From contig REDE01000125.1 of NCBI GenBank assembly GCA_007693635.1, positions 1-62,725 on the forward strand: a DNA stretch of 62,725 nt. Direction: 5' to 3'. Below the pieces are notes generated by a model. That model saw only the letters and a list, made by a program, of their open reading frames with translations, made no database searches and was not told the DNA's origin. The number at the start of each line of letters is the position of its first letter. The first letter of the stretch is position 1. Below, one piece after another: positions 28,538 to 45,714 of the stretch. The stretch is from Flavobacteriales bacterium. GTDB lineage: Bacteria > Bacteroidota > Bacteroidia > Flavobacteriales > Schleiferiaceae. A program made the translations under genes and the position numbers.

Positions 28538-29833
28538 CTACTCGGTCAGTGCTTTTTTGTAGCGTTCAAGTGCGCGTTCACGAGCAAATTTATGGTCCAC
28601 GATTGGTTTAGGGTAGGCTGAGGTCCCCCATTCACGAATGTGTTTTTTTATGTAGGTGTTGTTAGGGTCAAACTTTTCTGCTTGGGTTGTGGGGTTGAAA
28701 ACCCGGAAATAAGGAGCGGCATCATTACCACATCCCGCTGCCCACTGCCATCCTCCAACATTAGCTGATAAATCGAAATCTAGCAATTTTTCAGCGAAAT
28801 ATCTTTCCCCCCAACGCCAATCAATTAATAGATGCTTCGTGAGAAAGCTGGCGACAACCATTCGTACTCGGTTGTGCATATAGCCTGTTGTGTTGAGTTC
28901 TCGCATACCGGCATCGACTAGTGGATAGCCGGTTTTGCCTTCACACCATGCTTTGAAATGATTTTCGTTGTTGTCCCATTGAATTCTATCGTACTTTGGT
29001 TTAATAGCCCGATTTACACACTCCGGGAAGTGATACAAGGTCATTTGATAAAAGTCACGCCAGATTAATTCGCTGAGATATACTTGGTTTTTATGAATGG
29101 CAGCGCGCACTAAGCTGCGTATGCTAATGGTCCCGAAACGAAGGTGAACACTCAGACGGCTTGTTCCGTTGATCGAAGGTGTGTCTCTGGTTTCGTGATA
29201 GTTATTTAGAATTTGACTTTTTAGTTTGTTGTCTGGGAAATTGGCATGTTCTGACTGTCTAAATCCCATTTCGGTTAGAGATGGGATTTGCATTTTTTCA
29301 AGTTTAGCAAACGAACTGAAGTCTACCTTAAATTCTCGATAGTGATCTTCGGTAAGCAGAGACTCCCAAGCTTTCCTGTAAGGTGTAAATACGGTGTAAG
29401 TCCCCCCATCTTTTTTCACAACCTCCGATTTCTCAAAAATCACTTGGTCTTTATATCCAGTGAATTTCACGTTTTTTGATGACAAAAAATCGTAGACTTC
29501 TTTATCGCGTTTTTTTGCGTATGGCTCATAGTCGCGCACGGCCGATACTGATACAACCGGATAACTTTCGGTAAGATTCTTCCAGATATCTAAGGGTTTG
29601 CCGTATTTGACTACTAGACTGCTTCCATGTTCTTCCAATTTGTTCTTCATGAGTTGCAGTTGCTCGTGGATGAACTGAACTCTCAAATCGTGTTTGTCTT
29701 CAAGCTTATCCAGAATATCTGTATCGAAAATAAATAAGCCAACAATTGGTGTATTTAATTTGGCTGCTTCGTGCAGCGCGCGGTGGTCTTCGAGCCTTAA
29801 ATCGCGTCTAAACCAATGGATATGGATGCTCAC
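28538..29833 (-). CDS. phr: Deoxyribodipyrimidine photolyase / cryptochrome family
   Basis: This 431-residue flavoprotein probably repairs UV-induced cyclobutane pyrimidine dimers using blue light. The antenna domain (HWFRRDLRLEDHRAL) is at the N-terminus; the FAD domain has TSRLSVHLRFGTIS, ELIWRDFYQMTLYHFP, GYPLVDAGMREL, MVVASFLTKHLLIDWRWGE and GGWQWAAGCGNDAAPYFRVFNP (read in parts), which are class I photolyase motifs. It ends a minus-strand run of carotenoid, pterin and flavin genes, so it should be light-induced with them; pterin synthesis genes could supply a folate antenna. Which subclass (CPD class I or a cryptochrome) needs a tree. Confidence 0.92.
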   Translation of the reverse strand: MSIHIHWFRRDLRLEDHRALHEAAKLNTPIVGLFIFDTDILDKLEDKHDLRVQFIHEQLQLMKNKLEEHGSSLVVKYGKPLDIWKNLTESYPVVSVSAVRDYEPYAKKRDKEVYDFLSSKNVKFTGYKDQVIFEKSEVVKKDGGTYTVFTPYRKAWESLLTEDHYREFKVDFSSFAKLEKMQIPSLTEMGFRQSEHANFPDNKLKSQILNNYHETRDTPSINGTSRLSVHLRFGTISIRSLVRAAIHKNQVYLSELIWRDFYQMTLYHFPECVNRAIKPKYDRIQWDNNENHFKAWCEGKTGYPLVDAGMRELNTTGYMHNRVRMVVASFLTKHLLIDWRWGERYFAEKLLDFDLSANVGGWQWAAGCGNDAAPYFRVFNPTTQAEKFDPNNTYIKKHIREWGTSAYPKPIVDHKFARERALERYKKALTE

Positions 29834-29845
29834 GATGATATAAGT

Positions 29846-30463
29846 TTATTGGGGTCTAGCATAGGGCATTTCAGCGACTTTCTTGACGGAGTAGTAGGCA
29901 TCAAGTCCGCTTACAACGGCTGATTCGAGTGTTTCATGGAGGATTTCTCCCCTAGGAGATACAGCTTCTTCTCTGACATAAATGTCCAAAACTTCTCCGA
30001 TTAAAAGTCGTGTTTGATTACTCGAAATTATGAGTTCTTCCCTAAACTCAAGAGCCATTTGCAGCGGGGATTCTTCTACAAATGGTGCTTCAAAATCATT
30101 CCTATATTTCTCATTAAATCCACAAGCTTCAAACTCCGAAACGTTCTCAGGATAATTGGCTGAAGTCATGTGTGCAGCTCCCAAAATATCTTGACTTACA
30201 ATATTCAGCGTATAGATTTTACTTCTGTGAATGTTTTGCAGCGTGTGACGCTCAACGGTGTCTGGGCGAAAGATCATTCCAAGGAGCATGGGATTTGCTC
30301 CAATGTGGACAATAGAGTTAAATATTGCGAGATTTGTTCCCAGAGGTCCTTTGGTTCCAACGAGGAAGGGGCTTCGCATACCCGAGAGGGTGTTGCCGAA
30401 AGTGACGCGAGTAAATCGCTCCATTTCGGCAACATCTTTAGCTGTATATCTAGAAAACGCCAT
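29846..30463 (-). CDS. Flavin reductase-like protein
   Basis: This 205-residue protein has the split-barrel flavin reductase domain: NLAIFNSIVHIGANPMLLGM, then a FRPDTVERHTLQNI segment and later YTLNIVS, with an FMN-binding pattern. Such proteins reduce FMN or bind it. It lies 12 bp before phr and 4 bp after the SDR gene, all on the same strand. A role in keeping flavin reduced for the photolyase or supplying a partner enzyme is inference. The same gene family sits next to photolyase and folE in LitR-controlled clusters of other bacteria as I recall. Confidence 0.82.
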   Translation of the reverse strand: MAFSRYTAKDVAEMERFTRVTFGNTLSGMRSPFLVGTKGPLGTNLAIFNSIVHIGANPMLLGMIFRPDTVERHTLQNIHRSKIYTLNIVSQDILGAAHMTSANYPENVSEFEACGFNEKYRNDFEAPFVEESPLQMALEFREELIISSNQTRLLIGEVLDIYVREEAVSPRGEILHETLESAVVSGLDAYYSVKKVAEMPYARPQ

Positions 30464-30467
30464 GATT

Positions 30468-31157
30468 CTATTTTAGATTTGACATCCCTCCGTCGATATG
30501 CATCGTTTGTCCGGTTATCCAACTCCCTTCTTCGCTGATAAGGAATTTTGCCATAGCCGCTAAATGTTTAGGCGAGCCTACTTTTTTCAGGGGATGTCTT
30601 TCCGCTGCTGCTTCTTTTTTGCGATCATTTCCCAGTAGACCGCTTGCCATTGGGGTGTCGGTAAGAGATGGCGCGATGATATTGAAGCGTACTTTTGGCG
30701 CATACTCAGCGGCCAATGACCGCATAAGACCCTCAACGGCACCTTTGGCAGAAGCAACAGAAGCGTGAAAAGCCATTCCTGTATTAACCGCTACCGTTGA
30801 GAAAGCAACCACCGATGCATTTCCAGACTTGCGTAGAGCTGGCATGGCTTGCTGTAGAACTTTCACTAATCCGTAAAAGTTGATTTCCATATCGGTGCGG
30901 TATGCGTCTAAGGCTAAGCGATCAAAAGGTTTGAGATTGATGCTGCCCGGACAGTATACGAGTGCGTCTAAGGTTTCGGGTAAGGAAAGACTGAAGCCAT
31001 TATCTGTTACGTCGACGGTTTGTATGTGTAGCCCGGCAGGCATGGAAGAAAAGCCATTTCTGTTGGCAACGTATATTTCCGTGTTTTCCTGCTGACTTAA
31101 TAGATGGAGGAGTTCTTCTCCAACTCCCGAGTTTCCTCCGATAATAAGAACGTTCAT
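30468..31157 (-). CDS. SDR-family protein with an altered active site
   Basis: This 229-residue Rossmann-fold protein begins with the cofactor loop IIGGNSGVGEEL (GGxxGxG) and ends with ITGQTMHIDGGMS, as in classical short-chain dehydrogenases. In the YxxxK motif the lysine is K138 but the tyrosine position is V134 (HASVASAKGAVEG), so classical proton transfer is doubtful. As I recall, close relatives with SVAxAKGAVEGL are frequent beside photolyase and folE genes, so the change is conserved rather than a mutation. It could be a degenerate reductase, perhaps acting on a pterin (inference). It lies 41 bp downstream of folE and 4 bp from the flavin reductase gene. Confidence 0.85.
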   Translation of the reverse strand: MNVLIIGGNSGVGEELLHLLSQQENTEIYVANRNGFSSMPAGLHIQTVDVTDNGFSLSLPETLDALVYCPGSINLKPFDRLALDAYRTDMEINFYGLVKVLQQAMPALRKSGNASVVAFSTVAVNTGMAFHASVASAKGAVEGLMRSLAAEYAPKVRFNIIAPSLTDTPMASGLLGNDRKKEAAAERHPLKKVGSPKHLAAMAKFLISEEGSWITGQTMHIDGGMSNLK

Positions 31158-31198
31158 TTTGGTGTTGTTTTAATTAAATAAACCGCGATTTTGCGCAA

Positions 31199-31906
31199 TT
31201 ATTTAGCGTCTACGTGGCGGAAAAATTCTTCGCGATTTTTCACGTCCTCAAATGCGCCGCTGAAATGCGAAGTTACGGTCGATGATTGTCCGTCTTCTAT
31301 TCCGCGGGTAATTACACAGAAGTGTTCTGCTTCAACCACTACGGCCACATCTTGGGTGTTAAGAACCTCTTTAAGCTCTTGTGCAATTTGCTCGGTTAGA
31401 CGTTCTTGTACTTGTGGTCTCTTGGCAAAATATCGGACAATTCGGTTGATTTTGCTCAGTCCGATTACATGGCCATTGCTGATGTATGCAACGTGAACTT
31501 TACCGATGATTGGAACAAGGTGATGTTCGCAATATGAGTGAAGGGTGATGTTTCGCTCCACAAGCATTCGGTTGTAGCCATAACTGTTGGCAAACATTTG
31601 TGCGTTGGGTTTATTCTCCGGATTTAGACCAGAGAATATTTCCTTCACGTACATTTTCGCAACTCGGTATGGTGTGTTTCGAAGACTGTCATCGGTTAAA
31701 TCTAAACCTAAGATGGTAAGGATGTCGGCGACTTTGTCGGCAATTTGATCTATTTTTTCATCATCAGAAAGGTCGAATGCATTTGGCAGCATAGGGGTTT
31801 CGATCTTTCCGTTGAAGATGTGGTCGTCTATTACATCCATCATGTTTGTGTGTCCGTTGAGTCCGTTTTTACTCGCCAACTTCGACGAAATTTCTTGGGG
31901 TTTCAT
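31199..31906 (-). CDS. folE: GTP cyclohydrolase I
   Basis: This 235-residue enzyme turns GTP into 7,8-dihydroneopterin triphosphate, the first step of pterin and folate synthesis. Zinc ligands and catalytic residues are in LHSYCEHHLVPIIGKVHVAYI, and NRIVRYFAKRPQVQERL is the next motif. An N-terminal extension of about 60 residues is poorly conserved. From the ATG at 31906 it overlaps the queD-like gene by 38 bp; an internal ATG at 31843 would remove the overlap and cannot be excluded. With queD and an SDR downstream it makes a pterin-synthesis set. Confidence 0.93.
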   Translation of the reverse strand: MKPQEISSKLASKNGLNGHTNMMDVIDDHIFNGKIETPMLPNAFDLSDDEKIDQIADKVADILTILGLDLTDDSLRNTPYRVAKMYVKEIFSGLNPENKPNAQMFANSYGYNRMLVERNITLHSYCEHHLVPIIGKVHVAYISNGHVIGLSKINRIVRYFAKRPQVQERLTEQIAQELKEVLNTQDVAVVVEAEHFCVITRGIEDGQSSTVTSHFSGAFEDVKNREEFFRHVDAK

Positions 31907-32920: not shown

Positions 32921-33757
32921 TTAAAGTGCATTAAAACTATGGCGCAGGTAAGAGCTGAGTAGAAGTCGGTATTTTTTACGATTGGGTATTCGGACGCGTT
33001 CTTGCAATATCACGTTTGGCTCTAGACCTTTTATTCTTTGAAACAAGGCGTAGTAGTAAACGTAGGCTACATAAACACCAAATCTCACACCTCTGGGTAA
33101 TTGTTTTATTCCCTCAAAACCTGCTTTGAAATCTATTTCAATATCTCGTTCAATTTCAATTTTGGTCTGGGCATCAAAATTTTTCATGTCAATCCCCGGG
33201 AAATACACTCTACCCAATTGAAAGTAATCGGCGTGCAAGTCACGCAAAAAGTTTATTTTTTGAAACGCGCTTCCCAACTTCATGGCGGAGAACTTTAATT
33301 CTTCATACCGGTCTTTGTCGCCTTCTAAAAATACGCTTAGACACATCAAACCTACCACTTCGGCAGAACCTAAGATGTAATCTTCGTAACCATTCAAATC
33401 GTAGGACTGCTTTGATAAATCCATGCGCATGGATTTCAAAAAAGTTCGTATATTTTCGTGATCGATATTATATGTATTTACCGCCCACTGGAACGATTGA
33501 AGAATGGGATTTAAACTAATTCCTCTATCTATTGCGTCAAAAGTGTCTTTTTCAAATTCATCTAGCAAATTTTCTTTCGGAAACTCATGGAACGTGTCCA
33601 CAATTTCGTCTGCCAATCTTACAAATCCGTAAATCGCGTAAATGCCTTCATGAAACTTTTTGTCTAAACAATATATTCCCAACGAGAATGAGGTAGAATA
33701 TACGTTAGTCACCATTTTCGAGGTCGAAGCAGATACCTTGTTATACAGATGTTGCAT
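32921..33757 (-). CDS. crtB: Phytoene synthase
   Basis: This 278-residue enzyme joins two geranylgeranyl diphosphates into phytoene, the first step of C40 carotenoid synthesis. Both Asp-rich motifs are visible: DEIVD in YGFVRLADEIVDTF and, near residue 170, FLRDLHADYFQLGRVYFP. SFSLGIYCLDKKF fits the N-terminal region. It follows crtI by 23 bp and precedes idi by 9 bp. No lycopene cyclase or hydroxylase lies in the window, so later pathway steps are encoded elsewhere. Confidence 0.95.
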   Translation of the reverse strand: MQHLYNKVSASTSKMVTNVYSTSFSLGIYCLDKKFHEGIYAIYGFVRLADEIVDTFHEFPKENLLDEFEKDTFDAIDRGISLNPILQSFQWAVNTYNIDHENIRTFLKSMRMDLSKQSYDLNGYEDYILGSAEVVGLMCLSVFLEGDKDRYEELKFSAMKLGSAFQKINFLRDLHADYFQLGRVYFPGIDMKNFDAQTKIEIERDIEIDFKAGFEGIKQLPRGVRFGVYVAYVYYYALFQRIKGLEPNVILQERVRIPNRKKYRLLLSSYLRHSFNAL

Positions 33758-33780: not shown

Positions 33781-35289
33781 TTAAACAGTGACAGTCGTGT
33801 TTTGTTTCAAATTCCAGTTAAAATCTTTAACGATTTCATCACCCACCACGATTCCAGAAATTAAGGATGGCGGCACACCTGGACCAGGAACAGTTAGTTG
33901 CCCAGCGTAGTACAGGTTTTTTAGGTGTCTGTTTTTTAATGATGGTTTCAGGATAGCCGTTTGGTCAAGTGTATTAGCCAATCCGTAGGCATTGCCTTTG
34001 AATGCGTGATAATCTTTTTTGAAATCAAGCATTGCATATGATCTTTTCAACACAATATTATTGCGTATGGATTGACCCATGCTTTCTTCAAAGCGATCCA
34101 TAATCATGTTGAAATACTTCTCTCTCATTTCTTCAGTGTCTTCCAAATCTGGAGCAAGTGGAATCAAGAATGTCAATGCTTCTCCTCCTTCAGGGGCGAC
34201 ATGCTTATCTGTTTTTGAGGTGTTGGAAACGTAGTAAAGTGGCGTTTCTGGCCAACGCGGATTAGTGTAAATGGCGTCAGCATGTTCGTCGAATGGCGCA
34301 TCAAAGAAAAGGCAATGGTGCTCCATGTTTTTAACTTTGCAGTTAATTCCAACATAGAAAAGAAGACTTGAAGGAGCCATCTTCCTTCTATCCCAGTAGG
34401 AGGGAGTATAATTTGAAAACTTTTTGGGTAATAGTTTTTGGTCGACGTGGTTATAATCGGCCGACGCAACCACAACATCTGCATCGAATGTGCCTTTATT
34501 TGTATTAACGGCGGAGATGCTTTTATCGTTGAATTCAAAACCAGTGACTTCTGTGTCTAGTTGTATATTGACACCCAGTTCTAAGGCTAATTTTTCCATG
34601 CCTTGGACGACACTATACATACCGCCTTCAGGATACCATGTGCCGAGTTTTAAGTCTGCATAATTCATCAATGAATAAAGTGCGGGTGTGTTGTCTGGTA
34701 CCGCTCCCAAGAATAGAATGGGGAACTCCATCAACTGACGAATATACGGATCTTTGAAGAAGCTACTCACGTGCTTTCTCATGGAGCGAAGGACATGCAT
34801 TCGCACAAGACCTTTAAGGAGTCTCACATCTATAAATTCGGTAATCGATCTTGATGGTTTGTAGACTAAATCATTGATGCCAACTTCATATTTGTATTCA
34901 GCCTCTTTGAGAAATTGGGTTAGTTTGGCAAAGCTGCCTGGTTCACGTCGCTCCATCCATTTGCCTAAACTTTCCAGATTTGCATCAACCGAAACCTTGT
35001 CTCCTTCTGGGAAATAAACTTCGTAACCGGGGTCCAGTCTGTGTAGGGTATAGTAGTCACTTACCTTGCGATCGAATTTCTCAAAAAATCGCTCAAAGAC
35101 ATCGGGCATCCAATACCAACTTGGACCCATATCAAATGTAAACCCTTTTTCTTGGTAAAGTCTGGCTCTGCCGCCAACTTGTTCGTTTTTTTCTAATATG
35201 GTTACGTTTAGCCCTTTATGAGCTAGGTTGATTGCAGTTGAGAGTCCTGAAAACCCTCCTCCAATTACTATGGCTTGTGGTGTTTGCAT
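33781..35289 (-). CDS. crtI: Phytoene desaturase
   Basis: This 502-residue FAD enzyme desaturates phytoene to lycopene. The dinucleotide motif VIGGGFSGLSTAINLAHKG is near the N-terminus with the following ILEKNEQVGGRARLYQEKG, and YYAGQLTVPGPGVPPSLISG closes the protein, as in the CrtI family. Length is normal. It sits between the sigma factor gene (28 bp upstream) and crtB (23 bp downstream) and shares their promoter. Confidence 0.95.
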   Translation of the reverse strand: MQTPQAIVIGGGFSGLSTAINLAHKGLNVTILEKNEQVGGRARLYQEKGFTFDMGPSWYWMPDVFERFFEKFDRKVSDYYTLHRLDPGYEVYFPEGDKVSVDANLESLGKWMERREPGSFAKLTQFLKEAEYKYEVGINDLVYKPSRSITEFIDVRLLKGLVRMHVLRSMRKHVSSFFKDPYIRQLMEFPILFLGAVPDNTPALYSLMNYADLKLGTWYPEGGMYSVVQGMEKLALELGVNIQLDTEVTGFEFNDKSISAVNTNKGTFDADVVVASADYNHVDQKLLPKKFSNYTPSYWDRRKMAPSSLLFYVGINCKVKNMEHHCLFFDAPFDEHADAIYTNPRWPETPLYYVSNTSKTDKHVAPEGGEALTFLIPLAPDLEDTEEMREKYFNMIMDRFEESMGQSIRNNIVLKRSYAMLDFKKDYHAFKGNAYGLANTLDQTAILKPSLKNRHLKNLYYAGQLTVPGPGVPPSLISGIVVGDEIVKDFNWNLKQNTTVTV

Positions 35290-35317: not shown

Positions 35318-35824
35318 TTAGAAACGATAGTCTTGTAATCTTTCCATCATTTTTCTTCTTGCCAAAAAGATTCTACTTTTAACGGTTCCTAGTGGAATGT
35401 CTAGAATTTCGGCAATCTCCTCGTATTTGTATCCATTGTAATGCATCATGAACGTATCCAAATACGTTTTATCAACGGATTCTAACTGACGCATTAAGTA
35501 TTGTTGATCAACCAATCGGTCGGTACGAACTTCAGCTTCACTTTGGCGTGAATTGATAAAGTATTTGTTTTCTGTTTCGTCAACAAAAGTGTTTTGGTGT
35601 TTTTTCTTGCGATAGTTATTGATAAAGGTGTTTTTCATGATGGTATATAACCAACCTTTTATGTTGGTTCCATCCTGATACTTTTCTTTGTTTTTAATCG
35701 CCTTGAAAAAGGTTTCCTGCGTTAAATCATCAGCATCGTCCATACTTTTGGTAAGCTTCATGGCCAATTGGTGCAAAAACTGCTGGTGCGTGCTGATCAA
35801 ATTCCCAAACTCTGAAGTTGACAT
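35318..35824 (-). CDS. ECF-type RNA polymerase sigma factor
   Basis: This 168-residue sigma-70-family protein has region 2 (DADDLTQETFFKAIKNK and GWLYTIMKNTFINNYRKKK) and region 4 (YEEIAEILDIPLGTVKSRIFLARRKM), with no extra regions, as in ECF sigmas. No anti-sigma gene with a membrane segment is adjacent, so control may be transcriptional. It is the first gene of the carotenoid operon, 28 bp before crtI. It may drive its own operon or photolyase-type genes in response to light or singlet oxygen, which is inference. The promoter upstream is of the housekeeping type. Confidence 0.92.
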   Translation of the reverse strand: MSTSEFGNLISTHQQFLHQLAMKLTKSMDDADDLTQETFFKAIKNKEKYQDGTNIKGWLYTIMKNTFINNYRKKKHQNTFVDETENKYFINSRQSEAEVRTDRLVDQQYLMRQLESVDKTYLDTFMMHYNGYKYEEIAEILDIPLGTVKSRIFLARRKMMERLQDYRF

Positions 35825-35850
35825 AATGATTTTGTTTAATTAATTCGGGT

Positions 35851-35882
35851 CAAAGGTAAACAAAAAACTCATATCCCCACAA
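35851..35882 (-). promoter_or_regulatory. Promoter of the sigma-crtI-crtB-idi operon
   Basis: On the minus strand TTG (35882-35880), a 21-nt spacer and TACCTTTG (35858-35851) match the housekeeping Bacteroidota promoter. The predicted leader is about 25 nt. GTTTAA and TTAAAC half-sites (about 35887-35915) lie just upstream and might be operator parts. I see no protein-coding gene in 35825-36290. Confidence 0.6.
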
Positions 35883-36097
35883 GTTTTGTTTAAAAAAAAT
35901 GCTAAAATATTAAACGAATATTATTGTATGTGTCGTTGTTTTTTTCTAAGTATTTGTATTTCAGTTTTTTGGTTTTTCGGTTTGGTTTGTTTTGCTTGAA
36001 CGTCAGTGTTTTTTGTTAACCTAGCTTAATTGTTTAACTACTGTGCGATGTGTTATAACGATGTTTTCTGGACTAATTATTTATTTTGACGACTCAC

Positions 36098-36129
36098 TTG
36101 TGTCCCAAAAAAATTTTAATGGGACACGA
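36098..36129. promoter_or_regulatory. Inverted repeat in the sigma/DUF2279 gap
   Basis: GTGTCCC (36100-36106) and GGGACAC (36121-36127) flank a 14-nt A/T loop; one wobble and one T-A pair extend the stem on each side. No long T-run follows on either strand, so it is a weak terminator candidate for the DUF2279 gene or a regulator site upstream of the sigma-crt operon. A second 12-bp palindrome, TGGCTATAGCCA, is at 36169-36180. Confidence 0.4.
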
Positions 36130-36290
36130 ATGTTGATAAGCCTTATTTTTTTGCTTTTGTGGGAGTAGTGGCTATAGCCAGATTTTTATAATTTAAATCT
36201 GGGATTCGTCGTTTGCTACTAGCATTCTCATGCCGAGAAGATTTTTCACTTGCTTTTTTTTGTCTTGCTAACAAGTGAATGCGTAGTGCT

Positions 36291-37229
36291 TTACATGTAT
36301 ATAAAATGAAATTGCCACCCAAATACACTGTTGTACTCAATTGCTGGAGCCGGCATTTTTAGTAAATTAAGAGCTTCAAAGAATCCTTTCAGCCATTTTT
36401 TGGTCGTTGGTATTGCTGCAAAGTCTATATCTGGTGATATAAAAAATTGTCGGTAACGTGCAAATTCAGGTGCTAGTTGTCCGCTTATAAATCTTGGGTT
36501 TTCGAATTCGCCAAGCATACCGCCTGCGCTGTAGCCTAGAGCAATATTTAACCATTTCGGGATGTAGTCGTTTTTCCAAAATCGGTGAATGTTTGTGCTC
36601 AGCCAATAACTTTGTGAATTGTAATCCATAAATAAATTCTCGACAATATTTTCTCCCAGTGCACGTGGTCTTATGGGTGCGTATTCCGAAGGGTAGAAAG
36701 AGAATTTTAATTTTACCGGCTGCTCGTCGAAGAAATACTCTTGAGCAATGAATAATGCGCTACCCGCTGTATTGGCCCAAACGTCTCCCCACGAGAACCC
36801 GTATCCTTCGTACATTCCATCAAATATTTCTATGGGTAATTGCAGCACAAAGCCAAGTGTGCCTCCAAACCATAGGGCTTTATTTTTGCTCACTCCGCTC
36901 CATCTTAAGGCATGGTATCCGACTCGACTTTGGTGATAGGCGACGTAGGCATGGGCCCATTTGTCCATTTGATTCCATCCAGCATTGTCGTTGTAAAAGG
37001 TAAACGGTGCTCGCGGTTGATCTCTATACCAAACTTCCGATAAATAAATCATGCCGCCAACATAAAAGCCACCTATGCTGCTGCTAACCAATGCAAGACG
37101 CGTTTTATTTATCTCCGATATTGAATCTTGACCCATTGATTTCCGTGGAGATAATAGGCAAATGAACACGATGCATAATGCAATACAAGGTGAAAATATC
37201 TTTTGGTATGAATAACTGCGTAGTTGCAT
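36291..37229 (-). CDS. DUF2279 family predicted envelope protein
   Basis: This 312-residue protein has a hydrophobic N-terminal signal (ending KSMGQ) and the DUF2279 pattern: YLSEVWYRDQPRAPFTFYND, NQMDKWAHAYVAYHQ, then YEGYGFSWGDVWANTAGSALF, with conserved His and Asp residues (DKxxH). DUF2279 proteins are widespread in Bacteroidota and have no known function; some resemble VanZ-like or lipid-associated proteins. The ATG at 37229 is chosen rather than an in-frame TTG at 37253. It is divergent from lpd and on the same strand as the crt operon but 467 bp from it. Confidence 0.8.
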   Translation of the reverse strand: MQLRSYSYQKIFSPCIALCIVFICLLSPRKSMGQDSISEINKTRLALVSSSIGGFYVGGMIYLSEVWYRDQPRAPFTFYNDNAGWNQMDKWAHAYVAYHQSRVGYHALRWSGVSKNKALWFGGTLGFVLQLPIEIFDGMYEGYGFSWGDVWANTAGSALFIAQEYFFDEQPVKLKFSFYPSEYAPIRPRALGENIVENLFMDYNSQSYWLSTNIHRFWKNDYIPKWLNIALGYSAGGMLGEFENPRFISGQLAPEFARYRQFFISPDIDFAAIPTTKKWLKGFFEALNLLKMPAPAIEYNSVFGWQFHFIYM

Positions 37230-37432
37230 TTGTAGTTGAATATTGGTGTGCAAGGTACTAATTAATTGCTGTATTTAGTCTGTAGGCAAAATGATGTTCT
37301 TTTTTAGATTGGTAAGCACCCCTATTATTTGATTAAATTCTTGGTGGAAAAAACTACTCCAAATCGACTATATTCTCATTGCCTTATCGTATTTTCGCAG
37401 CCTAAGTTTAAGAATTTCAATTATCCCATATC

Positions 37433-38821
37433 ATGAATTACGATGTTATTATTGTGGGTTCCGGTCCAGGTGGATACGTAGCCGCTATTCGCGCTTCTCA
37501 ACTAGGCTTAAAAACAGCTATTGTTGAAAAAGAAAGTCTAGGTGGCGTATGTTTAAACTGGGGCTGCATACCTACGAAGGCGCTTTTGAAATCAGCGAAT
37601 GTTTTTGAATATATCCAACACGCCAAGGATTACGGAATTAGTGTCTCGGATGCGAAACACGACTTCAATGCGGTAGTGAAGCGTTCTCGTGACGTTGCCA
37701 ACGGAATGAGTGGTGGTGTTCAATTTTTAATGAAAAAGAATAAAATTGACGTCATCAGCGGCACTGGAAAGGTCTTGAAAGGTAAAAAAGTAGCCGTCAC
37801 CAACGAGAAGGGGGAGGTTAAGGAATACAGTGCCAAGCACATAATTATTGCTACCGGTGCGCGTAGTCGTGATCTTCCAAGTATGAAGCAAGATGGAGAA
37901 AAGATAATCGGTTACCGTAAGGCAATGGTTTTGGAAAATCAGCCTAAGAAAATGGTTGTTGTTGGTAGCGGAGCAATTGGTGTAGAGTTTTCATATTTTT
38001 ATAACGCTATGGGTACGAATGTAACCATCGTAGAATATATGGATCGCGTTGTGCCTGTTGAGGATGAAGAAGTAAGCAAGCAGCTTGAACGCAGCTTCAA
38101 AAAAGCAGGAATTAATATAATGACCAGCTCAGAAGTAACCGGAGTGGATACGTCTGGTAGCGGTTGTAAAGTGACAGTTAAAACCAAAAAGGGGACGGAA
38201 ACCATCGAATGTGATGTTGTGCTCTCTGCCGCCGGGGTTGTGGCTAATATCGAAAATATTGGTCTGGAAGAAGTGGGAATCAAAACCGAAAAAGGAAAAA
38301 TCGTTGTCGATGGAATGTACCGAACCAACGTAGACGGGTATTACGCCATTGGTGATTGCACTCCTGGTCAAGCTTTAGCTCACGTAGCATCAGCGGAGGG
38401 TATTATCTGTGTTGAGAATATTGCCGGACACCATCCTCAAGCTTTAGACTATAATAATATTCCTGGGTGTACTTATTGTTCGCCTGAAATCGCCTCTGTC
38501 GGGTATACCGAAAAAGCAGCTAAGGATGCAGGATACGAGATTAAAGTCGGCAAATTCCCTTTCTCGGCAAGTGGCAAGGCTAGTGCAGCCGGACACAAAG
38601 ACGGGTTTGTGAAACTAATTTTCGATGCAAAGTATGGCGAGCTATTAGGCGCGCACATGATCGGAGCCAATGTAACAGAAATGATTGCAGAAGCAGTTGT
38701 TGCGCGTAAATTGGAAACGACAGGAATGGAAATGATTAAAGCTGTTCACCCGCACCCTACGATGAGTGAGGCGGTAATGGAAGCAGCAGCCGCAGCTTAC
38801 GGTGAGGTCATTCACATGTAA
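37433..38821 (+). CDS. lpdA: Dihydrolipoyl dehydrogenase
   Basis: This 462-residue flavoprotein is the E3 component of 2-oxoacid dehydrogenase complexes, reoxidising dihydrolipoamide with NAD+. FAD binding is shown by VIIVGSGPGGYVAAIRASQLG, the redox pair by GGVCLNWGCIPTK (CxxxxC), NAD binding by VVVGSGAIGVEFSYFY and the catalytic His-Glu by HPHPTMSEAVMEA at the C-terminus. Length is normal. It is a single-gene unit with a terminator after it and is not next to E1/E2 genes. Confidence 0.96.
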   Translation: MNYDVIIVGSGPGGYVAAIRASQLGLKTAIVEKESLGGVCLNWGCIPTKALLKSANVFEYIQHAKDYGISVSDAKHDFNAVVKRSRDVANGMSGGVQFLMKKNKIDVISGTGKVLKGKKVAVTNEKGEVKEYSAKHIIIATGARSRDLPSMKQDGEKIIGYRKAMVLENQPKKMVVVGSGAIGVEFSYFYNAMGTNVTIVEYMDRVVPVEDEEVSKQLERSFKKAGINIMTSSEVTGVDTSGSGCKVTVKTKKGTETIECDVVLSAAGVVANIENIGLEEVGIKTEKGKIVVDGMYRTNVDGYYAIGDCTPGQALAHVASAEGIICVENIAGHHPQALDYNNIPGCTYCSPEIASVGYTEKAAKDAGYEIKVGKFPFSASGKASAAGHKDGFVKLIFDAKYGELLGAHMIGANVTEMIAEAVVARKLETTGMEMIKAVHPHPTMSEAVMEAAAAAYGEVIHM

Positions 38822-38872
38822 TCTGATTCGCTTCTGATTAAACGGGTCTTTGTATCTGTTTTCCACATTTTT

Positions 38873-38912
38873 AAAACCCCGATTTGCCATTGTGCGAATC
38901 GGGGTTTTTTTT
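38873..38912 (+). terminator. Terminator of lpdA
   Basis: AAAACCCCGATT (38873-38884) pairs with AATCGGGGTTTT (38897-38908) around a 12-nt loop, followed by more T residues to 38912. Confidence 0.85.
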
Positions 38913-38997
38913 GCGAAATTGATCGACTTGTTCAATATTAGTCTTATTGGTTGCCAAAGACTTTGTTTCAGGCTAAAGTGAAATGTGTTGTTCCTGC

Positions 38998-39037
38998 AAA
39001 AAAAATGGCCAAACGGAATTGAATTCCATCTGGCCAT
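38998..39037 (-). terminator. Terminator of gyrB
   Basis: On the minus strand ATGGCCA (39037-39031) pairs with TGGCCAT (39011-39005), with an inner GGAATT/AATTCC stem, and is followed by a seven-T run. It lies 23 bp beyond the gyrB stop, in the gap to lpdA. Confidence 0.75.
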
Positions 39038-39059
39038 ATGTGTAAATTTCGAAATGACT

Positions 39060-41012
<1,953 letters not shown>

Positions 41013-41198
41013 TCAGCTTTTTTGTTATCCCGACAAAGATACATCCGTTTGTCATTTTTTAGAGAGTGTACCCCTTTAAAAAACGGCCTTTTTTAAACAC
41101 TTTTTTTAACATGTAATAAACGAAAATCAGCTTTTGAGTATATTTTCACCTAAGCATTGTGTAAAGTTATTTCTGCGTTGTTGGATTGAATGCTGATG

Positions 41199-41226
41199 TT
41201 TGGCTGGTTTCGCTATTGTATATTTG
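41199..41226 (+). promoter_or_regulatory. Candidate promoter of the thioredoxin-like gene
   Basis: TATATTTG (41219-41226) matches TAnnTTTG; a TTTG at 41199-41202 is 16 nt upstream, shorter than usual. The predicted leader is about 29 nt, which agrees with the ATG at 41259 and not an upstream in-frame start at 41190. Confidence 0.4.
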
Positions 41227-41258
41227 TATTTCAAAACGAATTTTCTAAATGGACTAAA

Positions 41259-41795
41259 ATGCAATATTTATTCTCACTTTCGCTGGTTTTCGCTTCTTTT
41301 GTTCTTTCCGCTCAAGTCAATTGGATTTCCTTCTCTGATTTAGAAAAAGCGCAACAATCCGACCCTCGTCCGGTAATTGTTGATATGTACACGACTTGGT
41401 GTGGTCCATGTAAAATGATGGATGCGAACACATTTAATCATCCAAAGGTGGCTGCTTACATCAATCGTCACTTCCATGCGGTGAAGTTTAATGCCGAGGG
41501 AAATGAGGAAATCCTATTTGGCGGCCAGCGTATCGTCAACGAACAGTACGATCCTGCTAAACGAGGTAGAAACGCAACCCATCCTTTTGCGGGCAGCTTT
41601 GCCGTTAATGGTCGCTTGGCATATCCAACAACCGCATATTTAAGTCCGGACTTGAAAATGCTCACACAGCCCATCCAAGGTTATCTGACGCCCGATAAAA
41701 TTGAGCCTATTTTAAAATTTTTTGGAAGTAAAGCTTTTGAACGTCAAACTTGGGATCAGTTTAATGAATCATTTGCCCCGGAGTGGATAAATTAA
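41259..41795 (+). CDS. Secreted thioredoxin-like protein
   Basis: This 178-residue protein has a signal peptide (1-19, ending VLSAQ) and a thioredoxin fold with the redox motif TTWCGPCKMMDANTF (WCGPC), close to the thioredoxin_7/DUF255 group. It should act in the periplasm as a disulfide reductase or isomerase. The C-terminal half has an RGRNATHPFAGSFAVNGRLAYPTTAYLS segment (in two parts RGRNATHPFAGS and GRLAYPTTAYLS), with the cis-proline in YPTTAYL. Length is normal. The next gene, 61 bp downstream, is an outer-membrane barrel, possibly co-transcribed. Confidence 0.87.
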   Translation: MQYLFSLSLVFASFVLSAQVNWISFSDLEKAQQSDPRPVIVDMYTTWCGPCKMMDANTFNHPKVAAYINRHFHAVKFNAEGNEEILFGGQRIVNEQYDPAKRGRNATHPFAGSFAVNGRLAYPTTAYLSPDLKMLTQPIQGYLTPDKIEPILKFFGSKAFERQTWDQFNESFAPEWIN

Positions 41796-41856
41796 CGAGA
41801 CGCTGTTTTCGGCTTACACATTTTTTTCACAAATCTAAGCATTCGCAATTATACCG

Positions 41857-42978
41857 ATGCGAAGCGCTATAATCTTGGTTTGTGTTCTGCTGAATATAAG
41901 CATGACAGGCCAGCATCCCATTCTTAAAGCATTCGGTTTTCGGTCGCTCGACGATACGATTGTCCACCGTGATAATGGTTTAGCGATTGTGCCTTTAATA
42001 TATTACACTCCAGATACCCGTTGGGCGGCAGGAGCTTCTTTGGTGTATTACTTTAGTTTTACCGCCCGTGATTCTAGTGAGCAGGATACCAGACTTTCTT
42101 TTATTCAAACTTTAGCGGATTATACGCAGAATCAGCAATTTGATTTTTGGGCGACTTGGAGTTTGTTTAGTCGAAACGAGTCCTACTTGTCTAAAGGCGA
42201 ATTTCGTTTTCGTAATTTTCCCGATCGATTTTATGGTATAGGAAACGCTACAACCGAGGATATGATGGAGCGGTACAGTTACAATTTAGTAAGCTTTAAG
42301 GCTCTACTTATGAAAAAGGTTGCCAGGGGTTGGTTTGTAGGTGGTGATTTTCATCTGACTCGTGAATATCAGTTTGAATTTGAACCCGGAGGCGCATTGG
42401 CTTCTGGGAATATTCTTGGCGCCGAGAACGTAAACGGAGTTGCGGTGGGTGCAGTTGTGAGTAACGATACCCGAGATAATGTAATTAATCCCTATCGGGG
42501 TAGACTTTTAGAAGTTTCCACTTATCAGTATCTACGTCAACTTGGAAGCAGCTTTAACTTTTTGAGTATTCAATCGGTGGCTCAGTGGTACACGCAAGTC
42601 TTTCCCAAGCATATTATAGCGATTCAGTATCGGGGAATCTTCCAGTTTGGAGATATTCCATTTTTGGATTTGGCGATGCTGGGTAACGATGATTTGTTAA
42701 GGGGATACGCGCGTAACCGTTTCCGAGATGCTAATTTTTTAGGAGTTCAGACGGAATATCGATTTCCACTGTATCAGCGATTTGGTGGAGTGGCTTTTGC
42801 CGGACTAGGGGATGTATATAATTCTTCTGCGGATATTTCGTTACAAACGCTTAAGTACAGTCTTGGTGTTGGATTGCGTTTTTTGGTAGATCCGGCTGAG
42901 CGTTTGAATATCCGTTTTGATGTGGGTTTTGGTCGCAACAGCATGGCCTACTACCTCATGGTTACAGAGTCGTTTTAG
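41857..42978 (+). CDS. Omp85/surface-antigen (D15) family beta-barrel protein
   Basis: This 373-residue outer-membrane protein has a short signal peptide (ending SMTGQ) and a 16-strand-like barrel with alternating aromatic strands. The C-terminal half has NVINPYRGRLLEVSTY, LGNDDLLRGYARNRFRD (the L6-loop-like RGY motif) and terminal strand YYLMVTESF ending in Phe. No POTRA domains are visible, so it is a truncated patatin- or D15-like barrel rather than BamA. It may be a passive pore. It ends 3 bp before the convergent regulator gene. Confidence 0.82.
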   Translation: MRSAIILVCVLLNISMTGQHPILKAFGFRSLDDTIVHRDNGLAIVPLIYYTPDTRWAAGASLVYYFSFTARDSSEQDTRLSFIQTLADYTQNQQFDFWATWSLFSRNESYLSKGEFRFRNFPDRFYGIGNATTEDMMERYSYNLVSFKALLMKKVARGWFVGGDFHLTREYQFEFEPGGALASGNILGAENVNGVAVGAVVSNDTRDNVINPYRGRLLEVSTYQYLRQLGSSFNFLSIQSVAQWYTQVFPKHIIAIQYRGIFQFGDIPFLDLAMLGNDDLLRGYARNRFRDANFLGVQTEYRFPLYQRFGGVAFAGLGDVYNSSADISLQTLKYSLGVGLRFLVDPAERLNIRFDVGFGRNSMAYYLMVTESF

Positions 42979-42981
42979 GAA

Positions 42982-43875: not shown

Positions 43876-43950
43876 GCTCCATGAATCGCTCTGTAAATTT
43901 ATTTGGTTGTTGGTTTAACACAAAAGTAACAACTTTGGGTGGGTGTTTTG

Positions 43951-43968
43951 TTTAGTAATCTAAACATT
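43951..43968. promoter_or_regulatory. Perfect inverted repeat over the MerR promoter's -33 region
   Basis: TGTTTAG-TAAT-CTAAACA is an 18-bp dyad with 7-bp arms. It lies about 20 bp upstream of the regulator's -7 box and also about 45 bp upstream of a TACTTTTG box (44013-44020) for prfC. It is well placed for autoregulation by the LitR/CarH-like protein; binding is inferred. Confidence 0.5.
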
Positions 43969-44139
43969 TTGTGTGGTTTTTTTTCACATTTTTTATGCCT
44001 TCCTTTTTGAAGTACTTTTGCGCCGCCTTAGAAGGTGTTTTTTTATTCGAAGAAAATGCGGGTAAAGACACTCTACAGGTTTTATGATGCGGCTTAACAA
44101 GACTGGCGTTTTGCTTAAGGCATATAATTAAATACACAA

Positions 44140-45714
44140 ATGGAAAAGGAAATATTACGCCGACGTACTTTTGGAATCATATCGCATCCCGATGCCGGTA
44201 AAACGACTCTAACAGAGAAATTACTGCTTTTTGGTGGGGCGATTCAAGAGGCCGGAGCGGTAAAGTCTAATAAGATTCAGAAGACTGCTACTTCTGATTT
44301 TATGGAGATTGAGAAACAGCGTGGGATATCGGTGGCGACTTCGGTAATGGCCTTTGCGTATAAGGATTACCGAATTAACATTTTGGACACTCCTGGTCAC
44401 CAAGATTTTGCTGAGGATACATACCGGACTCTTACGGCTGTAGATTCCGTTATTTTGGTCGTGGACGTGGCTAAGGGTGTGGAGGCACAAACTGAGAAGT
44501 TGGCGGAGGTTTGTCGGATGCGCGATACGCCAATTATGGTGTTTATCAATAAAATGGATCGTGAAGGGAAAGATGCTTTTGATTTATTAGACGAAATTGA
44601 GAAAAAAATAGGTTTGAGTCTTTCTCCTCTGAGTTGGCCAGTTGGAATGGGGCAGGACTTTCAGGGGGTTTATGACATCTGGTCAAAGAGTTTGAAGTTG
44701 TATCTTGGCGGTAGTAAGCAAAAAATTCAAGAGTCGATCAAGATTACCGACTTGAGTGATTCATCACTGGAGGACATGATTGGTAATAAGGCTGCTAAAA
44801 CCTTGCGCGATGAGATTGAGTTAATCAGTGGCGTTTACGAAGATTTTGATGTTGAGGCATATCGTCAGGGTTTGCTTTCTCCCGTGTTTTTTGGTTCGGC
44901 ATTAAATAATTTTGGTGTTGCAGAATTGCTCGATTGTTTTGTCGAAATAGCTCCATCACCACAGCCTAAAAAGGCGGTTGATCGCTTGGTAAATCCCAAC
45001 GAGAAAAATTTCTCCGCTTTTATATTTAAGATTCATGCCAACATGGATCCCAATCACCGCAATCGTTTGGCTTTTGCGAAAATTGTTTCGGGGTCTTTTG
45101 AACGCAACACAAATTACCTGCATGTTCGCTCTGGGAAAAAAATGAAGTTTTCGGCTCCAATGACTTTTTTCGCGAGTAAAAAAAGTGTTGTTGAAACCGC
45201 TTTTGCCGGAGATATTGTCGGATTACCAGATTCTGGTAATTTTAGAATTGGGGATGCTTTTACGGAGGGTGAGTTGTTGCAATTCAAAGACATACCTTCC
45301 TTTTCTCCTGAGCACTTCCGCTTTATTAATAATGATGATCCGATGAAGGCGAAGCAGTTGAATAAAGGTGTTGATCAGTTGATGGATGAAGGTGTTGCGC
45401 AGTTGTTCACCCTAGAACACAACGGAAGGAAAATCATAGGAACGGTGGGCGCCCTACAATATGAGGTTATACAATATCGCCTCGAGCATGAGTATGGAGC
45501 CAAATGCTCCTATGAAAATTATCCGTGCTATAAAGCATGCTGGATTGAGTCGTCGAACCAGACTCAGTTGGAAGAGTTTAAGCGTCAAAAAGGAAGGTTT
45601 TTAGCTAGAGATAAATTTAATCAGCTGGTTTATATGGCTGATTCCTCGTTTAGCCTACAAATGGCTAAGGATAAATTTCCGGATATTAATTTCCATTTTA
45701 AATCGGAGTTTTAG
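44140..45714 (+). CDS. prfC: Peptide chain release factor 3
   Basis: This 524-residue GTPase removes RF1 or RF2 from ribosomes after termination. The GTPase motifs are SHPDAGKTTLTEK (P-loop), DTPGHQDFAEDT (G3) and NKMDREG (G4), followed by EF-Tu-like domain 2 and the RF3 C-terminal domain (YGAKCSYENYPCYKACWIES). Length is normal. TACTTTTG at 44013-44020 is a likely -7 box, giving a leader of about 115 nt. The upstream gap also contains the MerR operator. Confidence 0.96.
   Translation: MEKEILRRRTFGIISHPDAGKTTLTEKLLLFGGAIQEAGAVKSNKIQKTATSDFMEIEKQRGISVATSVMAFAYKDYRINILDTPGHQDFAEDTYRTLTAVDSVILVVDVAKGVEAQTEKLAEVCRMRDTPIMVFINKMDREGKDAFDLLDEIEKKIGLSLSPLSWPVGMGQDFQGVYDIWSKSLKLYLGGSKQKIQESIKITDLSDSSLEDMIGNKAAKTLRDEIELISGVYEDFDVEAYRQGLLSPVFFGSALNNFGVAELLDCFVEIAPSPQPKKAVDRLVNPNEKNFSAFIFKIHANMDPNHRNRLAFAKIVSGSFERNTNYLHVRSGKKMKFSAPMTFFASKKSVVETAFAGDIVGLPDSGNFRIGDAFTEGELLQFKDIPSFSPEHFRFINNDDPMKAKQLNKGVDQLMDEGVAQLFTLEHNGRKIIGTVGALQYEVIQYRLEHEYGAKCSYENYPCYKACWIESSNQTQLEEFKRQKGRFLARDKFNQLVYMADSSFSLQMAKDKFPDINFHFKSEF

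Follow-up and report, generated by a model that had tools for sequence, protein, structure and literature searches.

Which DNA does the MerR-type regulator of this locus read? Its gene lies divergently to prfC in the window (the whole stretch of 62,725 nucleotides that was analysed), at some distance from a set of carotenoid (crt) genes headed by a sigma factor gene, referred to below as sigma-crt. The original prediction proposed that the target is a short palindrome at the regulator's own promoter. The protein, its neighbourhood and the promoters of its orthologues were studied together in order to evaluate this proposal.

A regulator resembling CarH

The regulator carries an N-terminal MerR DNA-binding domain (Pfam MerR_1, 2e-15, 57 bits) and a B12-binding_2 domain (8.6e-10), and no Rossmann B12-binding domain was detected in it by Pfam. 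Its score against the NCBIfam CarH equivalog (TransRegCarH) is 88.7 bits, below the cut-off of 400. TtCarH is its best sequence match in the PDB (1.3e-16), and the AlphaFold2 model of the regulator (mean pLDDT 87.6) has TtCarH 5c8d as its best fold match (E = 4e-15), aligning with the cobalamin-domain chains at TMt values mostly between 0.76 and 0.80. Residues W140, E150, H151 and H188, corresponding to the Wx9EH motif and the lower-axial histidine, are invariant in 22 regulators and align with the WH, EH and lower His of TtCarH. Gln141, nearly invariant in the same 22 regulators, aligns with His132 of T. thermophilus, the histidine of the bis-His light state. This position is reported to vary among B12 photoreceptors and to be occupied by Gln in SasPcob (PMC11796333); Gln141 was therefore not treated as excluding membership of the CarH/LitR family. 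The B12 light signature given in the same text consists of GxxW, EH, GxxH and GxxxP (PMC11796333), and three of these four elements are found in the regulator; the GxxH element reads ExxH in the window and mostly lacks the G in the alignment. Judging from its residues and its modelled fold, the regulator looks able to work like CarH, of whose family it would be at most a divergent member.

Of 60 relatives, 52 have a match to the regulator at E ≤ 0.001, in some cases a weak one limited to the MerR domain; at E ≤ 1e-30, matches occur in 71 of the 88 family genomes. The scan of genome contigs made use of the best 80 of 586 confirmed stretches, among which the closest named record is a Cryomorphaceae MAG (75%).

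The crt locus and its gene order

The features of the locus are collected in Table 1. An orthologue of the sigma factor is present at E ≤ 1e-30 in 69 of the 88 family genomes. To judge from their orientation, the genes downstream of crtB are possible members of the crt operon, which would then combine pigment synthesis with photorepair.

About 7.2 kb of other genes, among them lpd and gyrB (named by eye), lie between the regulator and sigma-crt in the window (35825-42981). The regulator and sigma genes adjoin each other in the congener G003 and in all five other family genomes compared with it. In G003 the prfC-regulator neighbourhood is as in the window, and the regulator, sigma, crtI and crtB genes stand together, with 353 bp from regulator to sigma. 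The gap measures about 2 kb in the congeners G001, G002 and G004, and in G001 it holds a sulfate-permease-like frame (by eye).

Table 1 Features of the regulator and sigma-crt loci in the window
Feature	Coordinates	Strand	Basis and remarks
Photolyase/cryptochrome, flavin-reductase-like, SDR and GTP cyclohydrolase I genes	28538..31906	-	Pfam; co-directional, downstream of crtB
Phytoene-synthase-like gene (crtB position)	32921..33757	-	NCBIfam HpnD 92.6 and CrtB 77.7 bits, all below cut-offs
crtI, bifunctional phytoene desaturase	33781..35289	-	NCBIfam CrtID, 743.3 bits, above cut-off 640
ECF-type sigma factor gene heading the crt genes (sigma-crt)	35318..35824	-	Pfam Sigma70_r2 4.3e-18, Sigma70_r4_2 7.2e-13
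Predicted operator site 2 of sigma-crt, TGTTTAC-N16-TTAAACA (13/14)	35833..35862	-	Covers the -7 box; start 54 bp from site 1
-7-like box TACCTTTG of sigma-crt	35851..35858	-	Sequence; inside site 2
Predicted operator site 1 of sigma-crt, CGTTTAA-N16-TTAAACA (13/14)	35887..35916	-	Directly upstream of the -33 region
MerR + B12-binding_2 regulator, CarH fold, 297 aa	42982..43875	-	Pfam, PDB match, model
-7-like box TACTTTTG of the regulator gene	43921..43928	-	Sequence; pattern TAnnTTTG
18-bp dyad TGTTTAG-TAAT-CTAAACA	43949..43966	.	Two inverted half-sites, 11 bp centre to centre; sequence, not conserved
prfC	44140-45714	divergent from regulator	Pfam RF3_C

The palindrome at the regulator promoter

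The palindrome described in the original prediction is present where it was claimed to be: TGTTTAGTAATCTAAACA is an 18-bp dyad with two perfect 7-bp arms and a 4-bp loop (0 mismatches to the proposed form), placed between the regulator gene and the divergent prfC. The Bacteroidota promoter consensus, TTTG/TAnnTTTG, was used to locate the -33 and -7 boxes. Counted from the start of the TACTTTTG box, the dyad occupies positions 38 to 21 bp upstream and covers the -33 region. A second TACTTTTG occurs at 44013-44020 on the plus strand, before prfC, so that two divergent promoter-like boxes flank the dyad. A role as intrinsic terminator was rejected by eye, given the AT-rich arms and the location between divergent starts.

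As a DNA target, the exact dyad fares less well. It was expected to recur in the genome and upstream of orthologous regulators. In the own genome (2.56 Mb) it is the only exact copy, and the single match with one mismatch falls within a coding frame read by eye as rsmD. With up to three mismatches there are eight matches in the window against 4.24 expected, a number reached by 7 of 100 shuffles, and 129 in the whole genome against 237 for the reversed control, i.e. no enrichment. Among 146 distinct regulator upstreams (up to 250 bp each), TGTTTAG-N4-CTAAACA is found within two mismatches only in the window's own, where it has none; no upstream has its best match at one or two mismatches, four have it at three, and the spread of best matches over the 146 equals that of the reversed control. 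Since the dyad occurs in no other of these upstreams within two mismatches, it is, as far as these sequences tell, not the conserved target of the regulator, and it was also rejected as a regulon-wide target on the same counts.

A wide inverted repeat at the sigma-crt promoter

The original prediction had also noticed half-sites upstream of sigma-crt (35887-35915) and set them aside as not forming the same dyad. They are present, and they belong to one of two real 30-bp sites of another arrangement, TGTTTAA-N16-TTAAACA. In the own genome, only two places lie within one mismatch of this element at spacing 16, both of them at sigma-crt, and at spacing 17 there is one other such place (G000:C110:2668-2698). 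At two mismatches the genome counts are not above the reversed control (19 against 41 at spacing 16, 19 against 44 at spacing 17).

The conservation of the element was evaluated on upstream regions of orthologous genes. Several kinds of rows were dropped: sigma hits with an identity below 50% in the family set or below 40% in the named set; hits of the family set that began beyond query residue 8; upstreams shorter than 60 (family) or 80 (named) bases; and repeats identical over the last 60 bases. This left 113 sigma and 146 regulator upstreams, corresponding to 110 and 140 clusters sharing no 50-mer. At least 12 of the 14 positions, at spacings of 15-18, are matched in 111 of the 113 distinct sigma upstreams (40 shuffles: mean 7.1, maximum 12), and the element is perfect in 85 of the 113 against none in the shuffles. 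The promoters that carry it belong to Flavobacteriales and Cytophagales, and the cultured genera in which it is traceable are Algoriphagus, Pontibacter and Marivirga. Spacing 16 is found in 98 and spacing 17 in 34 of the 113 promoters, and spacings 13-15 and 18-20 in zero to three each; two or more sites (at least 11/14) are present in 103. Across the 88 family genomes, the exact element at spacing 16 or 17 occurs 99 times, summed from the listed counts, against three times for the reversed pattern. A TnnACA core is found in the right half of 221 and in the left half of 197 of the 224 sites, and it is the core that CarH reads (PMC9304148). A tandem arrangement of 11-bp direct repeats was rejected: none of the 224 sites has such a repeat at offset -11 on either strand, and three and two have one at +11.

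The regulator target is very probably built from this TnnACA/TGTTTAA half-site, with sigma-crt as a likely target. What stands of the proposal that the dyad is the target is, then, its predicted half-site, and what falls is the exact 18-bp form.

Geometry of the paired sites

The distances between paired sites are discrete. Measured from start to start, the last two sites of the 103 two-site sigma promoters lie 43-46 bp apart in 43 cases, 52-56 bp in 45, 63-65 bp in 13 and at other distances in two, and none of the 103 has a distance of 47-51 or 57-62 bp. The -7 box TAnnTTTG is in range in 73 of them, and in 64 of the 73 its start falls 57-60 bp downstream of that of site 1 (58 bp in 44, as in the window); relative to the start of site 2 it lies at +4, +14 or -6 in 70 of the 72 promoters of the three spacing classes. 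Steps of about 10 bp could mean that the two sites need to lie on one face of the helix, a point that is suggestive only, as the sequences are related: on the tree of 101 sigma proteins the spacing classes require only three changes, and the helical-phase point therefore rests on few events. Separations of about 45, 54 or 64 bp between the two copies suggest a pair of dimers, or a single tetramer, in contact across the promoter on the same DNA face.

Regulator promoters and the reader of the element

A wide site matching at least 12 of 14 positions is present in 48 of the 146 regulator promoters (shuffle mean 4.1, maximum 12), at spacing 16 in 31 and at spacing 17 in 18 of the 146, and absent from 98, including that of the window. 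In a smaller set of 45 regulator upstreams, spacing 16 is found in 22 at 11/14 or better, and in at most 10 in 100 shuffles. The three readable congeners (G001, G003 and G004) have TGTTTAA-N16-TTAAACA at the regulator promoter, with 12, 12 and 13 of 14 matches, starting 58, 58 and 59 bp before the regulator -7 box, which is the place of site 1 at sigma-crt. The regulator upstream of G001 (L003) contains a second wide site (12/14) that starts 10 bp before the -7 box and encloses it, much as at sigma-crt.

The best reading of the window is that its autoregulatory site may have been lost or reshaped, the wide site being gone and the 18-bp dyad standing there instead. The dyad could in that case be due to chance or be the reshaped remnant of the autoregulatory site kept by the congeners. 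We lean slightly towards regarding it as a functionless chance palindrome in AT-rich intergenic DNA: the window contains 51 perfect 7-bp-arm dyads with loops of 3-8 bp, nine of them with a loop of 4 bp, the dyad is not conserved and its lone one-mismatch match in the genome is in a coding frame. Nevertheless, scored as a TGTTTAA/TTAAACA pair the dyad reaches 12/14, so that its arms are the half-site of the conserved predicted operator (6/7 each), and they are found at the right promoter. We consider it rather unlikely that the dyad is a working autoregulatory site, in which two flexibly tethered DNA-binding domains would grip half-sites about one helical turn closer than those of the 30-bp operator. 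Both arms have the TnnACA core and cover the -33 region, and shuffling the intergenic region 1000 times yields a pair this good at spacing 4 only 18 times; yet this figure rises to 66 at spacings 4-6 and to 378 at any spacing from 0 to 30. In the 45 upstreams, spacings 4, 5 and 6 occur 13, 17 and 13 times at 11/14 or better, against maxima of 10, 7 and 10 in 100 shuffles, but this looser excess is gone once the threshold is raised and more upstreams are counted, spacing 4 then being at background (three of 146 at 12/14 or better, against the 31 and 18 at spacings 16 and 17). A comparable short pair, TGTTTAGAACTCAAACA, does accompany the 30-bp site near the regulator promoter of G003, and CarH operators elsewhere are described as plastic (PMC9304148); the exact form of the dyad, for its part, is found in no other regulator upstream.

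The wide sites could also be read by a factor other than the MerR-type regulator, for example the product of the sigma gene or a CRP/FNR protein. Their arrangement is at its most regular in front of the sigma gene and, going by the title of one paper, a CRP/FNR protein of Thermus takes part in light-induced carotenoid control. Several observations make such a reader improbable. In 24 of the 80 named loci the regulator has no sigma gene in its flank; nine of these 24 hold a total of 11 sites at 13/14 or better (control: 1) and 15 hold none. Ten of the 11 lie within about 400 bp before the regulator, and such sites are present in eight of the 24 loci. G021 has a perfect site directly before crtI, which there is next to the regulator gene, with no sigma gene intervening. 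Conversely, the two sigma promoters of the 113 without any site are those of G060 and G032, which have no close regulator: G060 has no match at E ≤ 1e-30, an absence that could reflect incompleteness of this 91% complete genome, and the regulator of G032 is only 38% identical and encoded on another contig than the sigma gene. Finally, the core of the sites equals the CarH core TnnACA. The MerR-type regulator is retained as the predicted reader of the element.

A wider candidate regulon

Further candidate targets were read for the loci that were fetched, which make up a part of the 99 exact sites. The element lies beside a proteorhodopsin gene in G018, G005 (two sites) and G014 (Pfam) and in G074 (by eye). 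A perfect 30/31-bp element is located before proteorhodopsin genes in several relatives (L188, L198, L201 and also L200). Matches of at least 12/14 are found in 18 of 49 distinct rhodopsin upstreams (shuffle mean 2.0, maximum 7) and perfect ones in five, against none in the shuffles. These 49 come from 53 of the 61 listed places (eight were not fetched), three short upstreams and two repeats having been dropped; L200, read from inside the gene owing to a run of N, was counted as siteless.

Other neighbours include a lycopene cyclase gene (G009, Pfam) and genes for fasciclin-domain lipoproteins (G030, G064, G019, G065 and G032 by Pfam; G063, G018 and G067 by eye). Before fasciclin-domain lipoprotein genes, the element repeatedly stands shortly ahead of the start codon (L166, L167, L174, L175, L187, L189 and L194). 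In G019 it lies beside an SDR gene (Pfam), together with a photolyase-like frame (by eye), and beside a gene for a TonB plug protein, and in G032 beside a flavin-reductase gene and a TetR-type gene. DUF4397 is found next to it in G019 (Pfam) and G011 (by eye), and in G022 a DUF4856 gene lies about 200 bp off. The sites L195 (G032) and L199 (G073) have no clear target, and L159 (G060) falls within a coding frame.

In the own genome, the rhodopsin gene was rejected as a target, no site of at least 11/14 being present in the 330 bases before it. The fasciclin gene was rejected as well: its best site, 11/14, lies about 1 kb away inside another frame.

Discussion

We consider it probable, on the evidence of sequences and of a structural model, that a CarH/LitR-type repressor acting on pairs of TGTTTAA-N16/17-TTAAACA controls sigma-crt by light. 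In the dark, the regulator would sit on the two wide inverted repeats of the sigma-crt promoter; with site 1 reaching almost to the -33 box and site 2 lying over the -7 box or the start region, RNA polymerase would be blocked. Light, probably through an adenosyl-B12 chromophore, would release the regulator, and this release would switch on the ECF sigma factor and the carotenoid genes, together with the downstream photolyase and GTP cyclohydrolase genes. From the motif, its copies, their conservation and geometry, the association with the regulator, its modelled CarH fold and its conserved B12-pocket residues, we infer binding, repression, light control and B12 control of the predicted operator.

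Several known systems resemble this arrangement in part. CarH of Thermus thermophilus and Bacillus megaterium shares with the regulator the MerR domain, the B12-domain fold as modelled, the Wx9EH motif and the lower-ligand His, and also a promoter-overlapping operator with a TnnACA core. Its operators consist of three or four tandem 11-bp direct repeats, whereas wide inverted repeats are found here; His132 of the T. thermophilus protein is replaced by Gln; and the first target in the present case is a sigma factor gene ahead of crt. The CarA/CarH operator at Pcrt of Myxococcus xanthus is likewise described as large and promoter-overlapping, and two CarA dimers bind it cooperatively. It was initially interpreted as a pair of inverted repeats, the first ahead of the -35 region and the second over it; later work reads direct repeats. 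Its site sequence differs from that of the window, and the operator measures about 55 bp end to end, compared with 84 bp here. The class II LitR proteins PplR1 and PmlR2 of Pseudomonas also have two sites at one promoter, one over the -35 region and one between start site and start codon, but their consensus, T(G/A)TACA-N12-TGTA(C/T)A, differs from the present element by eye comparison, and their light sensor is a separate LOV protein (PMC9758184). Within the Bacteroidota, the rpoE/merR/crt cluster of Echinicola and the merR/crt cluster of Nonlabens bring the same kinds of genes together, and the available portions of these accounts describe no operator or light control (PMC8683446, PMC11855829). 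By title, abstract or passage, no description of a CarH/LitR operator in Bacteroidota was found in the literature searched, which covers few subscription journals. The paired wide TnnACA inverted repeat is a probable operator in many Bacteroidota.

In a study of light-induced carotenoids in Chryseobacterium, the light switching of Bacteroidota pigment genes is called unknown (PMC7064467). This question becomes testable with a precise predicted operator that a single promoter carries in two copies and that can be followed into cultured genera. The element also provides a marker with which further members of the regulon can be sought, and it may tie proteorhodopsin to the same switch. Tentatively, one could go further and imagine that the Bacteroidota share an ancient light switch, in which a Gln-type B12 MerR photoreceptor, differing in this from the CarH proteins characterised so far, reads pairs of wide TnnACA inverted repeats locked in helical phase around the promoter, one operator serving sigma-crt, lycopene cyclase, cryptochrome-linked genes, fasciclin lipoproteins and, in several lineages, proteorhodopsin. 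If this were true, the pigment and the light-driven pump would be switched together.
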